Positions 20,089-26,491 of a stretch of 47,645 bases of DNA are shown here, piece after piece. The notes under the pieces are model-generated. The model was not told the DNA's origin and made no database searches. It saw only the letters and a list, made by a program, of their open reading frames with translations. The first letter of the stretch is position 1, and the number at the start of each line of letters is the position of its first letter. The position numbers and the translations under genes were made by a program. This DNA comes from Actinomycetes bacterium. Lineage in GTDB: Bacteria > Actinomycetota > Acidimicrobiia > Acidimicrobiales > JAJZXF01. The stretch spans positions 1-47,645 of the forward strand of contig JAJZXF010000012.1 in assembly GCA_021802485.1 (NCBI GenBank). The letters are read 5' to 3'.

Positions 20089-21146
20089 ATGAACATATCT
20101 CGGAAGCTGCGGACAGGGGGGGGCTTGGCCAGCGATCCAGTCGATCCCGGACAGGACCGCCTCGTGGAGAGGGGTTCATTCGATCTGGGTCCCGAGGAGT
20201 CGTCGGGATTCTCAGTGCCTTGGTTCTGGTCGGCCTTGCAACCGTAGTTCCGCGTAGCACGCCTGTTGTGGGTGTCTTGAGGCTTCAGCGCAAGCAGCGC
20301 GATCTTCGCCCGACGCTCACTTCCAGGTCGATCTCACAGCCTGCTCCGATAGCGCTCTGGTCCGACTCTTCGTCTCTATACTGGTCCGGAGGCTTTTCAA
20401 GCGCCAGTGGCATGGTGCACTCCAACTCAGCAATGACCTTTGCCGGAAGCGGGTTGAGCTTGAACGGACCGGTCGAGTATGCGACGAGCCTCAGCATCGT
20501 CGGTGCGAAGCCGTCTTTTTCCAAGACGCCAAGCAAGGTTGCTCCCTATGGGCCGACGATGAACTACAACCTCGGTCTGTATGCTCCAGGCGGCGAGCAG
20601 GCTCTATCCGCAGGCAGCTCATATTTCAATGAGACCTCAACATGCTCTTCTTCTCATGGCACCTGGTTCGTCTGGGGCTCTCTTTCTCCTGGTCTTTACT
20701 GGGTGCCGTGCAACGTCGTGTTCTTGGGCGTCGCTCAGTCCATGAGGATCACCGTCGTTGCTACAGGAACCATCAGCGTAGTTGGTGCCTTCGAGAGCTT
20801 CAGCTCGTACATGGACAATCTCATGCTTGCAACCACATCGAACTCGCCGCTCGCACTCATGCTGACAGGCGCTGGGGTCTCTACGAAGGGATACCTCTGG
20901 GACCCGACGGGAGAAGTGTGGATCACCGGCGCTGGTGACTCGCTCGTGTGCGGAGCGATTGGCGCAGGCATTATCGTCACAGGGCTCGGACTCAGCATCG
21001 ACGGGACATCCTGTCCGGTGATACCGCCGGTGGTCTTCTCCAAGCCCATCTACCATGCGCTTCCTGCTCCGATATACGTGAACACAGCGTCGCTTCCACC
21101 GCAGCCAACACCGAGAGGCACCCCAATGGTGCTCCCTGCGCCCTGA
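20089..21146 (+). CDS. Exported beta-helix-like protein, reading frame broken at a G8 tract
   Basis: The ATG at 20089 has a strong Shine-Dalgarno (ggggagga, 4-5 bases upstream), but its frame ends after 52 codons at 20247. The long frame (to 21146) is entered by a -1 shift at the G8 tract 20116-20123. It then gives a basic leader, a hydrophobic segment VVGILSALVLVGLATVVP, and about 290 residues rich in Ser, Gly and Val. These contain SGMVHSNSAMTFAGSGLSL, APYGPTMNYNLGLYAPGG and SPGLYWVPCNVVF, resembling the beta-helical VHSN-type proteins found near actinobacterial pilus-like genes (recollection, not searched). A TTG at 20073 is in the long frame but lacks a spaced ribosome-binding site. It may be one half of a split gene with the next ORF. 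Confidence 0.6.
20116..20123 (+). repeat. G8 homopolymer at the frame junction
   Basis: Eight consecutive G's lie nine codons after the ATG at 20089. In that frame the bases read G GGG GGC, which fits a -1 slippery heptamer X XXY YYZ. With nine G's the gene would be open through to 21146; with eight it stops after 52 codons. Slipped-strand phase variation, programmed frameshifting, or a sequencing error all fit. Confidence 0.85.
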
Positions 21147-21220
21147 TGGCGCGCATACGTCAAGCGCCTTTCCAAGTGGCGCCAACACCGAGAGGCACCC
21201 CGGCGTTGCTCCCTGCTGTC
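21104..21220 (+). repeat. Imperfect direct repeat, 77-bp offset, splitting two ORFs
   Basis: The 21-base block beginning gccaacaccgagaggc at 21104 recurs at 21181; about 33 of the first 40 bases match by hand count, and similarity fades after that. Both copies encode PTPRGTP, but in different frames because 77 is not a multiple of three. Deleting one unit would fuse the ORF ending at 21146 in frame with the ORF running to 23896. Confidence 0.8.
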
Positions 21221-23896
21221 AGCGATCCATACGAACCAGCGGCCTCTGCGATGCAGGGGGTGCCGATCCTGAACTCGTCCTCAGCGCAGACCCAGTACGG
21301 GCCTACCCCAAGTGTTTTCCAGCCCTTCCAGGGGACGAGTTACCATTCGCAGCTGAACTCAACCGGTGTCGCTCTCAGTCCTCCAGACCCAGTGATAGCG
21401 ACAGACGGGGAAACTGTCGCAGAGGCGGTCAATGCCACGTTGAGCTGGTACCCCACCTCTCCCGGAGCTGGTCAGTCAGGCGTGTTGAATCTCAACTCCC
21501 TTTTCAACCAAACTTTCCTGGACAGTACCTACGGCGCGTTTGGCCCACTTGGGGGTCCGGGCCCAAACGGAGAGACCTGTAGCAATTTCGCAGACCCGCG
21601 CTTGTTCTACGGTAGGAATACCTGGTTCCTGACTGGCCTGCTTGTCGCGGCATGTCCCGCCACGTTCCACTACACGGCGGTTGTAATTGGCGCGACAAAT
21701 GATCTTGCTGCGAACACCGCGGCGGGATGGGCCTTCTATGTGATCGACCAGAACACCCCGGATTACACTAAGAGCCAGCAGGGGTTCTATCACTGCTGTT
21801 TCGACCAGCCCCGTATGGGAGTGAATACGAGTGATGTCGTTGTCACGTTTGATGTGTTTCACAACCCAGATGGTTCTTCACGACACCCCTACCCGTGTTG
21901 GCAGTCTCCCAAGAATAAGGAACAGATATGGGCGCTCGCGAAGGTGGATCTTGTCAACGCGGCGGACGCGGCCGACAGCGGTGGTTCTGGATCGAACATG
22001 TGCAATAACTGCGAGTCATCACAGATACTTTGCAAAGGCCCAAGCTGCCGCTATGCGTTTCCGGTATCTGGCTCGCCCTTCATTGTTTACAATGCTTCTC
22101 AAGCCAGCGGCGGGACGGGCCCATACTTTGGGCTCATGGCACTAACTGGAACGCCGGGTGTCTTTCCGGGTATCGCCCTTACGCTGGCTACGGATAAAGC
22201 CTATGGGATTCCGCTGACGTCATGCTTGAGCGACTCGTGGCCAGGCCCGTGCGCAACGACTGAACCACCGCGAGCGGTCAACGCGGCGACGAAAGCCTTC
22301 CGGATTCCCCAAGGACCTGGCGGGCCACTAACTCCCCAAATTGATGACGACAGGGTGCTCTCTGCTGCGTATGAGGCCAATCCATACCCTGGTATTATTG
22401 GCGAGATATGGGTGAGCGGCAACACGGGCTGCGATCCCGGGGGCTCTGGTGCACCTTTGACGATATGCGCCTACGTGTTCAAGATTGCAATACTCTCGTT
22501 TACTCCGGGAGGGGAGAATTCAGCTACTCCGGGAGGGGAGATTTTGGCGTGGCTTACTCGGCAGTTTCTTGTAGGGAGTCCCGGTGTCAGCTTCATGTAC
22601 CCTGCTGTGGCATTGGACGGTTGCCAAGCAGATATTCCCTCTTCTTTTGATTGTCCCGAGAACCTCTACATCTCGATGACCGAGGCGGGTAACTCGGTCA
22701 AGAATACCTCTGTGAGCAGCTACCCATCAGCGGTGGTGGCTACGGTGCCAGGCGATCTCGTGCTTCACAACGTGGTGATATATTCGTATCCGTTGCAGGC
22801 GTTCTCGATGGTGACGCTGCAACCGGGGCTTCAGAACGACGGGACTTGGCTTGCCCAAGGATGGCCTGCCAATAAGAATTGCGATGGTAGCGATCGTTGG
22901 GGGGACTACCTGGCGGCCTTTCCCGATCCCAGTCGTGCGAACCTCGTGTGGGTGGTCTCAGAGGACGTGGTGTCGAATACCCCAGTTGCTGTGAACAACA
23001 GTTGTACTGGTGGGCTGACGACCTGGGCTTACGGTTGGAGTACCACGATAGCTGAGGTCTCCTTGCGGCCAACGCCGACATTGTCAAGCAAGGGCCTATG
23101 GATGGCTACTGCGGGTGGTGATGTGCTCACTTTCGGTCAAGCGGCAAACGTCGGCTCGAACGCTGGCCCAGTGAAGACCCTCGACGAGCCAGTAGTTGGC
23201 ATGGCTGCTAGGCCGCATGGCAATGGCTACTGGCTCGTGGCATCTGATGGTGGCGTCTTCGCTTACGGCGATGCGGCCTTCTACGGCTCGATGGGCGGCG
23301 AGCATCTCAACAAACCGATGGTCGGCATCGCTGCAACCCCGGATGGCAACGGTTATTGGACGGTGGCATCTGATGGTGGCGTCTTCGCCTACGGCGATGC
23401 TGTGTTCCACGGCTCGATGGGCGGCAAGCACCTCAACAAGCCAGTAGTTGGCATGGCTGCTACCCCGGATGGCAACGGTTATTGGACGGTGGCATCTGAT
23501 GGTGGCGTCTTCGCCTACGGCGATGCTGTGTTCCACGGCTCGATGGGCGGGCAACCGATAAGCGCACCGATAGCTGGTATGGCATCCCCACAGGCTGGTG
23601 GTGGCTACTGGCTTGTCGCGAAAGACGGCTACGTCTATGCCTTCTTCGGTTCCTCGACATCACCGACAACGACAGTATCGCCAATCAGCGACGTGGCAAG
23701 CATCGTCGCACCCCGCTCTGCGGGCGGCACGGACAGCGCCTGTTACTACGTGGTTGGTGTCTATATGCACGTCTATGTAGGCGGCGGCAGCGCCTGTGTC
23801 GCCGACACCAAGAATTGGTACGAAACGCTAAACACCACTCCAGGGTGGCCAGGTTTCTTGCCCAAGCACCCGATCGTTGGCGTTGCAGCTGAATAA
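21146..23896 (+). CDS. Large propeller-like surface protein with 42-residue C-terminal repeats
   Basis: The frame starts at an ATG overlapping the previous stop (TGATG) and gives 916 residues without a signal peptide. Residues about 40-620 resemble secreted sialidase-like proteins: PDPVIATDGETVAEAVNATL, then NFADPRLFYGRNTWFLTGL, with many Cys, Asn and aromatic residues. I cannot assign a catalytic activity. From about residue 650 there are 42-residue repeats of the type GYWTVASDGGVFAYGDAVFHGSMGG: four clear copies and about two degenerate ones, probably beta-propeller blades. Lack of an export signal is odd for such a protein and supports the idea that it was once, or still is, joined to the upstream ORF, which has the hydrophobic N-terminus. 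Export by reinitiation alone seems unlikely. Confidence 0.75.
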   Translation: MARIRQAPFQVAPTPRGTPALLPAVSDPYEPAASAMQGVPILNSSSAQTQYGPTPSVFQPFQGTSYHSQLNSTGVALSPPDPVIATDGETVAEAVNATLSWYPTSPGAGQSGVLNLNSLFNQTFLDSTYGAFGPLGGPGPNGETCSNFADPRLFYGRNTWFLTGLLVAACPATFHYTAVVIGATNDLAANTAAGWAFYVIDQNTPDYTKSQQGFYHCCFDQPRMGVNTSDVVVTFDVFHNPDGSSRHPYPCWQSPKNKEQIWALAKVDLVNAADAADSGGSGSNMCNNCESSQILCKGPSCRYAFPVSGSPFIVYNASQASGGTGPYFGLMALTGTPGVFPGIALTLATDKAYGIPLTSCLSDSWPGPCATTEPPRAVNAATKAFRIPQGPGGPLTPQIDDDRVLSAAYEANPYPGIIGEIWVSGNTGCDPGGSGAPLTICAYVFKIAILSFTPGGENSATPGGEILAWLTRQFLVGSPGVSFMYPAVALDGCQADIPSSFDCPENLYISMTEAGNSVKNTSVSSYPSAVVATVPGDLVLHNVVIYSYPLQAFSMVTLQPGLQNDGTWLAQGWPANKNCDGSDRWGDYLAAFPDPSRANLVWVVSEDVVSNTPVAVNNSCTGGLTTWAYGWSTTIAEVSLRPTPTLSSKGLWMATAGGDVLTFGQAANVGSNAGPVKTLDEPVVGMAARPHGNGYWLVASDGGVFAYGDAAFYGSMGGEHLNKPMVGIAATPDGNGYWTVASDGGVFAYGDAVFHGSMGGKHLNKPVVGMAATPDGNGYWTVASDGGVFAYGDAVFHGSMGGQPISAPIAGMASPQAGGGYWLVAKDGYVYAFFGSSTSPTTTVSPISDVASIVAPRSAGGTDSACYYVVGVYMHVYVGGGSACVADTKNWYETLNTTPGWPGFLPKHPIVGVAAE

Positions 23897-23904
23897 GAGC
23901 AAGG

Positions 23905-23993
23905 CAGGCTGTCGCAAAATGGCCCGAAACAGCGGTCTCCGAAGGCAAAACCCCAGGTGGCGTTCCGCTCCAAATGCATTTTGCGACAGCCTG
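23905..23993. mobile_element. 89-bp MITE-like element with 17-bp perfect terminal inverted repeats
   Basis: caggctgtcgcaaaatg at 23905-23921 is the exact reverse complement of 23977-23993. The element is flanked by the 4-bp direct repeat AAGG (23901-23904 and 23994-23997), as expected for a target-site duplication. It has no coding capacity. The termini resemble those of DDE insertion sequences, so it may be mobilised in trans. The alternative is a transcription terminator for the gene ending at 23896, but the 55-base loop and flanking repeats favour an element. Confidence 0.7.
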
Positions 23994-24112
23994 AAGGAGG
24001 CGGTAACCAGATGCTCACCCATGATTCTCCCAGTAGCCCGAGAATCGCCGAGTTGTTCTTGTGGTGGATGGATTCTGGTGGTCTTGAGCACCGAGAAAAG
24101 GGGCGTGGGAAG

Positions 24113-26491
24113 ATGACCCGACGGCGCTGGAGGGATCTGGGATTGGCACCTATCGTCGCTGCAGTTGCAACTGTTGCGCTGCTCGCAGTAAGTACTGCGC
24201 CAGCATTTGCACAGCCGGCAAGCTGGACGGTTACCCCGACGCCCAGCATCACCTCGGGGTTTTGGGTCGGGTTCGGTGGCGTTTCCTGTGCTGGTGCTAA
24301 TTTCTGTGCTGCAGTTGGAAGCTATGTTTTGAACTCGACCGACACGCCGCAGACCCTGATCGAGACTTGGGATGGCGCGAAGTGGTCCCTCAGCGCGAGC
24401 AAGGACTCATCCTCGTCGGAGAGGAACGGGCTTGCTCGCGTTGACTGTGTAAGCGCCACGTTCTGTGTTGCGGTCGGAGATTCGTCTTCAGGGTCAATCC
24501 TCTATCCGACCTACCACACGCTCGTCGAGACCTGGAACGGGACGAGCTGGTCGATCACGCAAAGTCCCAATCCGTCTTCTACCGAGACCGCGACGCTATC
24601 GGGAATCTCATGTGTAAGCATTACGGACTGCAAAGCGGTTGGTTGGTACGACAACGCCTCGGGAATCGCACAGACCCTTGCGGAGACCTGGAACGGCACA
24701 ACCTGGTCCATCACGCAAAGTCCCAATCCGTCTACTACCGCGACCGCGGCGCTATCGGACGTTTCATGTGCGGACTCGGGCTACTGTACCGCGGTGGGTA
24801 GCTACAACGCGCCTAATGCGATGCAAACCCTCATCGAGACCTGGAACGGGACCAGCTGGTCCATCACGCAAAGTCCCAATCCGTCTGCTACCGAGAACGC
24901 AGTTCTTCGGGCCATCTCGTGTACGAGCCAGAGTTACTGCGTAGCGGTTGGCCGCAACGACGCTGCTCCCAGCATGAGACAAACCCTCATCGAGACCTGG
25001 AACGGCGCCAGCTGGTCCATCACACAGAGCCCTGATACTTCTGCGTCGACATCGAATGTGCTGTATGGCGTGTCGTGTGTGTCTGCTCAAGGTTCGACAT
25101 CGTGTGTTGCGGTGGGTTACTACGAAGGCCAAGGCGGTTGGCAGACCCTTATTGAGAGCTACGACGGAGTCTCCTGGGCAATCACTGAGAGCCCGAACTC
25201 GTCGGCAAGCCACCCGGCCAGCTTAGACGGGGTCACTTGTACCTCTTCGAGTAGCTGCTTTGCGGTCGGAGGAGCGCACTATGACGCTCTCGTACTAACC
25301 GGCTCATCTGTGCCCGCAACCCCGTTTAACGTCACGACCACATCGCTTCCCCAGGCGGTGGTGGGCCAGAGTTACTCGGCTAGGCTCGGAACAACTGGTG
25401 GTGTGTCGCCATATACGTGGTCGCTCTCCAGCGGATCCCTTCCACAGGGCCTTTCGCTATCTGCATCAGGTGTGATCTCAGGAGTAGCGACGAAGCCTGG
25501 CACCTACAGCTTTGTCGTTAGCGTCACGGACTCGAGCAGTCCACCCCAGTCCACCAAGGGCACTGTTCCCATCACCGTTGCTGACGCTCCTGTGCTCTCA
25601 GCAAAGGGCTACTGGGAAGTGGCCTCCGACGGAGGGCTGTTTGCCTTCGGCGACGCTCACTTCTACGGATCTATGGGTGCAAAGCCCCTCAACAAACCAA
25701 TCGTCGGCATCGCTACAACCCCAGATGGGAAGGGATATTGGGAGGTCGCCTCAGACGGAGGGCTGTTTGCCTTCGGTGACGCTCACTTCTACGGATCCAT
25801 GGGTGCAAAGCCTCTCAACAAGCCAATAGTCGGCATCGCTACAACCCCTGATGGAAAGGGATATTGGGAGGTCGCCTCAGACGGAGGGCTGTTTGCCTTC
25901 GGTGACGCTCACTTCTACGGATCCATGGGTGCAAAGCCTCTCAACAAGCCAATAGTCGGCATCGCTACAACCCCTGATGGAAAGGGCTACTGGGAAGTGG
26001 CCTCCGACGGAGGGCTGTTTGCCTTCGGCGACGCTCACTTCTACGGATCCATGGGTGCAAAGCCTCTCAACAAGCCAATTGTCGGCATCGCTGCTACCCC
26101 AGATGGGAAGGGCTACTGGGAGGTCGCCTCGGACGGAGGGCTGTTTGCCTTCGGCGACGCTCACTTCTACGGATCTATGGGTGCAAAGCCCCTCAACAAA
26201 CCAATTGTCGGCATCGCTACAACCCCTGATGGAAAGGGATACTGGGAGGTCGCCTCAGACGGCGGACTCTTTGCCTTCGGCGATGCCCACTTCTACGGAT
26301 CGATGGGTGCGAAGCCTCTCAACAAGCCAATTGTAGGCATCGCAGCAACCCCAGATGGCATGGGCTACTGGGAGGTTGCCTCAGACGGGGGGCTGTTTGC
26401 ATTCGGCGACGCTCACTTCTACGGATCCATGGGTGCAAAGCCGCTCAACAAGCCAATCGTCGGAATCGCTACATATGTGGTGGCTGGATGA
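24113..26491 (+). CDS. Secreted protein with two seven-fold repeat arrays joined by an Ig-like domain
   Basis: From ATG 24113 (ggggcgtgggaag just upstream) the protein is 792 residues. A Sec signal peptide, LAPIVAAVATVALLAVSTAPAFA, precedes QPASW. Residues about 45-400 hold seven repeats, each centred on SCxxxxxCxAVG followed by QTLIETWNGTSWSITQSPNP; the regular Cys pair suggests one disulfide per blade of a seven-bladed propeller. A putative-Ig (He_PIG-type) domain, AVVGQSYSARLGTTGGVSPY to VVSVTDSSSPP, covers about 410-490. The C-terminal 294 residues are exactly seven 42-residue repeats (GYWEVASDGGLFAFGDAHFY...). No anchor is visible; probably secreted or envelope-attached. Function unknown; adhesion or polysaccharide binding is a guess. 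The frame is open upstream to 23957, but that part arises from the MITE. Confidence 0.85.
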   Translation: MTRRRWRDLGLAPIVAAVATVALLAVSTAPAFAQPASWTVTPTPSITSGFWVGFGGVSCAGANFCAAVGSYVLNSTDTPQTLIETWDGAKWSLSASKDSSSSERNGLARVDCVSATFCVAVGDSSSGSILYPTYHTLVETWNGTSWSITQSPNPSSTETATLSGISCVSITDCKAVGWYDNASGIAQTLAETWNGTTWSITQSPNPSTTATAALSDVSCADSGYCTAVGSYNAPNAMQTLIETWNGTSWSITQSPNPSATENAVLRAISCTSQSYCVAVGRNDAAPSMRQTLIETWNGASWSITQSPDTSASTSNVLYGVSCVSAQGSTSCVAVGYYEGQGGWQTLIESYDGVSWAITESPNSSASHPASLDGVTCTSSSSCFAVGGAHYDALVLTGSSVPATPFNVTTTSLPQAVVGQSYSARLGTTGGVSPYTWSLSSGSLPQGLSLSASGVISGVATKPGTYSFVVSVTDSSSPPQSTKGTVPITVADAPVLSAKGYWEVASDGGLFAFGDAHFYGSMGAKPLNKPIVGIATTPDGKGYWEVASDGGLFAFGDAHFYGSMGAKPLNKPIVGIATTPDGKGYWEVASDGGLFAFGDAHFYGSMGAKPLNKPIVGIATTPDGKGYWEVASDGGLFAFGDAHFYGSMGAKPLNKPIVGIAATPDGKGYWEVASDGGLFAFGDAHFYGSMGAKPLNKPIVGIATTPDGKGYWEVASDGGLFAFGDAHFYGSMGAKPLNKPIVGIAATPDGMGYWEVASDGGLFAFGDAHFYGSMGAKPLNKPIVGIATYVVAG
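25607..26488 (+). repeat. Seven tandem 126-bp repeats
   Basis: Seven head-to-tail units of exactly 126 bp (42 codons) run from 25607 to 26488, ending directly at the stop codon. Protein identity between units is nearly complete (differences at IATT/IAAT and PDGK/PDGM), and the DNA differs mainly at synonymous sites, indicating recent expansion or gene conversion. The homologous units of the upstream gene (about 23100-23600) are more diverged. Confidence 0.95.

Follow-up and report, generated by a model that had tools for sequence, protein, structure and literature searches.

MITEs of the IS1182 type are already known. MITEPye1 of Paracoccus yeei is 159 bp in length, has 18 bp IS1182-like inverted ends and 4 bp duplications, and occurs in intergenic positions in a single species, with one to three copies per chromosome that are 96–100 % identical (PMC11578231). 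In Methanosarcina acetivorans, MITEs of 160–169 bp with ends of 25–26 bp are paired with ISMac2, a member of the IS1182 family, and one of the two ISMac2-paired MITEs has a 4 bp duplication (PMC3852290). The Rickettsia palindromic elements are about 150 bp long and fall into ten families; nearly half are located in genes, where they can be translated (reviewed in PMC10969869).

Here, we describe an 89 bp MITE from the draft genome of an Actinomycetes bacterium of the order Acidimicrobiales. Like MITEPye1, it is non-autonomous and intergenic, with IS1182-like ends and 4 bp duplications. However, MITEPye1 plus its duplication amounts to 163 bp, which is not a multiple of three, whereas the corresponding length here is 93 bp. 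The distribution also differs, as the one to three chromosomal copies of MITEPye1 in one species compare with nine copies in one genome, and seven genomes from four families of one order, for the present element. The ISMac2-paired MITEs share an IS1182-type partner with it, but differ in length, ends and archaeal host. Rickettsia palindromic elements are similarly short, palindromic, mobile and able to sit in frame; in contrast, we found one secure in-frame case in the genome under study and one in another, and the element is open in six frames, with clear 4 bp duplications and a named helper family. A constant, frame-neutral and stop-poor 89 bp form present in four families is unusual.

The element and its insertion site

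The window, the whole 47,645 nt stretch of DNA that was analysed, is the entire contig C101 of the draft genome (G000; 2.86 Mb, 152 contigs), hereafter the host genome. The original prediction of perfect 17 bp inverted ends flanked by an AAGG duplication was confirmed (Table 1). The arms are 100 % complementary and enclose 55 nt, and 8 nt separate the upstream stop codon from the element.

Table 1. Coordinates of the element and neighbouring features in the window
Feature	Position	Strand	Remarks
89 bp MITE	23905..23993	+	One of nine copies in the host genome
Left terminal inverted repeat CAGGCTGTCGCAAAATG	23905..23921	+	1/17 mismatch to each end of the L245 IS1182-family element
Right terminal inverted repeat	23977..23993	-	Perfect complement of the left repeat
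Oriented interior	23922..23976	+	Conserved in relatives: TGGCCC, GGgCAaaaG.CCaGgT, GCTCG (alignment, conservation profile)
Target duplication AAGG, left copy	23901..23904	.	
Target duplication AAGG, right copy	23994..23997	.	First four bases of AAGGAGG
Likely Shine-Dalgarno AAGGAGG	23994..24000	+	10 nt before ATG 24011; read from the sequence
Upstream 982 aa frame	20948..23896	+	No Pfam match; stop TAA 23894-23896
Downstream frame, 826 aa from ATG 24011	24011..26491	+	He_PIG Ig-like domain

The original prediction overlooked that the likely ribosome-binding site of the downstream gene begins with the right AAGG. We infer the effect of the insertion on the neighbouring window genes from this arrangement. 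Before the insertion, a gap of 21 nt that included the ribosome-binding site would have separated the two genes, and the insertion would have pushed them 93 bp apart. The AAGGAGG of the downstream gene was probably left whole because the insertion duplicated the target AAGG.

The description of the neighbours as surface-protein genes is plausible: the downstream protein carries the He_PIG domain and a hydrophobic segment near the N-terminus, whilst the lack of a Pfam match leaves the upstream frame without such backing. The downstream gene has a second possible start at 24113, followed by a signal-peptide-like stretch. DGGVFAYGDAVFHGSMGG-type repeats were observed near the C-terminus of the upstream frame.

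Dispersed copies, relatives and a candidate helper

The host genome contains nine copies of the element on nine contigs, which are 97–100 % identical; five are identical, and the others show one to three changes across the 89 positions. The sequences flanking the nine copies are unrelated between sites. Eight of the nine have perfect 4 bp duplications (AAGG, CACG, CAAG, CACG, CTTC, CTTA, CATG and TCAG) and the ninth has one mismatch. The element is small (89 bp, <500 bp) and lacks a transposase gene, its terminal inverted repeats match over 17 bp at 100 %, and perfect duplications accompany dispersed copies both in the host genome (8/9) and over all tabulated sites (20/40). The sole reasonable reading is that it is a genuine MITE that was recently mobile. 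These copies also speak to the earlier suggestion of a DDE-transposon derivative, which is borne out by their 4 bp duplications and by the matching ends of an IS1182-family insertion sequence, and they exclude a single-copy, conserved terminator.

Two assembly features were noted alongside these copies. On contig C142 (L005, around 1500), a MITE copy lies within an apparently decayed transposase frame with several stops and no Pfam match. Contigs C15 (L028, 1-122) and C84 (L034, 1-122) have their first ~120 bases in common; this is probably the terminus of a further multi-copy insertion sequence at which the assembly broke.

The original prediction also proposed that the element may supply a hairpin terminator for the upstream gene. 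A role for the intergenic element as a conserved terminator or regulatory RNA would be in keeping with a predicted transcript that folds at -39.5 kcal/mol, 8 nt past the stop codon. The fold score (z -4.35) is, however, as expected because of the inverted ends alone. Terminator and promoter scans of the window site found nothing, and the site lacks the GC-rich hairpin with a short loop and a T-run that defines an intrinsic terminator: the arms enclose 55 nt, with no T-run on either side. An Rfam search of the element returned a single match, below threshold; covariation was slight along the arms, and RNA-like covariation beyond them was not seen. Since nine unrelated sites carry the element with target duplications, a conserved terminator is contradicted, and we give the terminator or RNA reading almost no credence. 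It is also very improbable that the element is REPIN-like and depends on a RAYT (Y1 transposase) for its movement. Its small size, its paired inverted ends and its survival in several genomes within one order would suit such an element, but half of the sites show a perfect 4 bp target duplication and the ends are common to a DDE-type IS1182 element. Target duplications of this kind are not known from REPINs.

Amongst 99 genomes of the same genus and order, a DNA match to the MITE was found only in the sister species G001, which has four 89 bp copies at 72–75 % identity. An order-wide scan for the 17 bp ends revealed many more in G178, the genome richest in copies, as repeated 89 bp elements whose interiors have diverged yet remain co-linear. 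With a covariance model based on 22 elements, the family was detected in four families of the order and in at least 7/397 of its genomes, a lower bound given that the filters were strict and at most 11 candidates were scored per genome; the weakest match, in G252, was partial. Pairing ends at distances of up to 400 bp, with no length preset, gave 33 pairs, 27 of them exactly 89 bp. The remaining lengths were 48, 88, 98, 105, 156 and 182; those of 156 and 182 are composites. Thus, although the sequences diverge by up to about 30 %, almost every copy found measures exactly 89 bp. Perfect 4 bp duplications were present at 20/40 tabulated sites, against 0.18 expected, and are mostly of the form CNNG (first base C in 16 of the 20, last base G or A in 19).

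Searches of plasmids and phages gave no match for the element, and scanning public genome and viral contigs for exact 16-mers returned mostly chance matches without a partner end; the real relatives were FK2.bin64 (which is G001) and MAS3.bin81. Separately, the public genome JANYDH (Actinomycetes bacterium 336R_metabinner_51) contains many copies of a different repeat that includes this 16-mer (about TTTGGCGTTGGGTTGTTGTCAACAGGCTGTCGCAAAATGTGGGTG); sequence is conserved to either side, and a partner end is frequently missing (L073, L085, L092-L094, L096, L097, L117, L127, L131, L137, L148, L153, L158 and L168).

A search for a full-length insertion sequence with the same ends had been proposed as a check, and one with nearly the same ends was found within the order, though none in the host genome. 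This 2239 bp element is present at L138 in MAS3.bin81, the one public genome picked up by an exact end match, and at L245 in its counterpart G370. At L245, each end has 1/17 mismatch to the MITE and the flanks are CTCG/CTCG, a duplication of the CNNG type. The resemblance is limited to the ends: the interior is unrelated to that of the MITE and encodes a 517 aa transposase and a DUF6788 frame. The transposase, read from L138, has DUF772 and DDE domains and scored 286 bits against the NCBIfam IS1182 cut-off of 270. The DUF6788 frame lies on the strand opposite to the transposase (L138, 4617-5390). Because the L138 copy has a different right flank with no duplication, and 98 bp of its left flank are common to L245, we counted L245 alone as a clean insertion. 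G370 carries both the 2239 bp insertion sequence and an 89 bp element with the duplication CGAG.

Seven IS1182-type elements from plasmids were compared to see whether such ends are a mark of the family. Independent actinobacterial IS1182-family elements of Pseudarthrobacter and Rhodococcus have ends that differ from those of the MITE at 3/17 positions, with 4 bp duplications: L339 (1741 bp, end GAGCCTGTCGCAGAATGG, TTCG/TTCG) and L342 (1734 bp, end GAGGCTGTTGCAGAATGC, TACG/TACG). Three other plasmid elements showed a shorter likeness to the MITE ends and were located in CTAG.

An IS1182 transposase was present in G370 and, as fragments for which we found no matching ends, in G001. None was found in the draft genome of G178, nor in that of the host, although five MITE copies there are identical, and the 12 DDE_Tnp_1 transposases of the host genome lack matching ends. 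Such MITEs usually, but not necessarily, share a genome with their helper. A missing helper is weak evidence because the genomes are drafts; an insertion sequence may have collapsed and dropped out of the host assembly, or the genome may no longer carry the helper. Overall, we hold with high confidence that this is a genuine MITE, most likely derived from the IS1182 family, and we infer mobilization by IS1182 in the host genome. In the proposed mechanism, an IS1182-family DDE transposase supplied in trans would recognize the 17 bp ends, move the 89 bp unit and make a 4 bp staggered cut with a preference for CNNG, the target being duplicated upon insertion. The window copy would have inserted past one gene's stop codon and ahead of its neighbour's ribosome-binding site.

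Frame neutrality, stop codons and copies within genes

With its 4 bp duplication, the element adds 93 bp, or 31 codons; a length divisible by three, as looked for in elements of the Rickettsia type, was found in nearly all copies. All host-genome copies lack stops in any of the six frames. Over 38 elements, dinucleotide shuffles predicted 105 six-frame stops, whereas 36 were observed; 21 of the elements were stop-free in all six frames against 1.8 expected. Because the elements are related, the test was repeated on the tree, where 22 stop gains were counted against 49.8 +/- 6.4 when the same substitutions were placed randomly (0 of 1000). Shuffling bases within columns gave P 0.013 for total stops and P 0.0015 for stop-free elements. 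In 72 flank segments of equal GC, stops occurred at 3.28 per 89 bp, against 1.04 in the elements, and the most depleted trinucleotide pair in the elements was TGA/TCA. Of 264 composition-matched trinucleotide sets, 5 were even less frequent than the stop set, and the ones listed are TA-rich, so part of the stop deficit reflects general TA avoidance. The G001 copies have 3–4 stops each.

Most sites, that in the window and several more among them, lie between genes. One in-frame gene insertion is secure: on contig C29 of the host genome (L004, C29:2606-5695), a copy continues the reading frame of a DUF6922 gene that neighbours an AbiEii nucleotidyltransferase gene (Pfam E 4e-11 and 3e-10). Where C29 has ..GRKRVGDVFR-(31 residues)-EDFFGNRSLPV.., the G289 homologue has ..GWGKVEQVVG-EDYFGNRSLPV.., which looks like an empty site of the C29 insertion at the protein level. 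Comparison with empty sites in relatives had been suggested as a check; at the DNA level, a search of G001 with joined flanks gave partial matches only, away from the junctions, and thus no empty site, and the window's own insertion site was not found in relatives. The two C29 genes resemble a type IV toxin-antitoxin pair. In G370, a degenerate copy (L306) forms an in-frame part of an AMP-binding enzyme (E 2e-39), whose PDB relatives are about 25–30 residues shorter at that position. On C89, the frame across the element resembles a winged-helix protein, but with an upstream stop and no Pfam match, and appears decayed. These cases (one secure, one degenerate and one decayed frame) are too few to show selection for frame keeping.

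Two explanations of the constant length and the lack of stops were weighed. It is possible, if somewhat short of evenly likely, that the family has been selected to be frame-neutral, with 31 stop-free codons adding a peptide and leaving the gene unbroken, as in Rickettsia palindromic elements; such selection would add to the explanation as an IS1182 MITE and does not replace it. This reading accounts for the 27/33 pairs that converge on 89 bp, for the stop deficit and the 21/38 stop-free elements, for the 22 stop gains against 49.8 +/- 6.4 on the tree, and for the depletion of TGA/TCA alongside flanks of equal GC with three times more stops. The C29 copy, absent as 31 residues from the G289 homologue, and the degenerate L306 copy, at a position where PDB relatives are shorter, are also consistent with it. 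On the other hand, the insertions look mostly intergenic, the rarer matched sets (5/264) assign part of the signal to TA avoidance, the elements have common ancestry, the G001 copies each carry stops, and the length variants of 88, 98, 105 and 48 follow no clear frame rule.

There is close to an even chance that the length is instead set by the transposase, through helical phasing or synapsis of the ends and binding sites in the interior, with the lack of stops a by-product of conserved GC-rich sequence. The interior blocks are conserved and oriented, as expected of binding sites, the sites are mostly intergenic, and other IS1182-type MITEs (159, 160 bp) are not frame-neutral with a 4 bp duplication. 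Against it stand the stop gains on the tree, fewer than expected from the same substitutions, and the depletion of TGA/TCA, which TA avoidance leaves unexplained. Such a constraint explains the observations about as well as selection for harmless gene insertion. The specific proposal that selection has kept the 89 bp length across families, as 31 codons stop-free in six frames that spread through genes by adding peptides, strikes us as somewhat less likely than not.

Implications for the family

A single length held across several families despite up to about 30 % divergence is unusual for IS1182-type MITEs. A stop-free insert of 31 codons may let the MITE enter genes without breaking the frame. 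Were both its length and its lack of stops under selection, the family would represent a further bacterial case, outside Rickettsia, of mobile DNA adapted to coding sequences, and one in a GC-rich lineage with a helper family open to direct testing.
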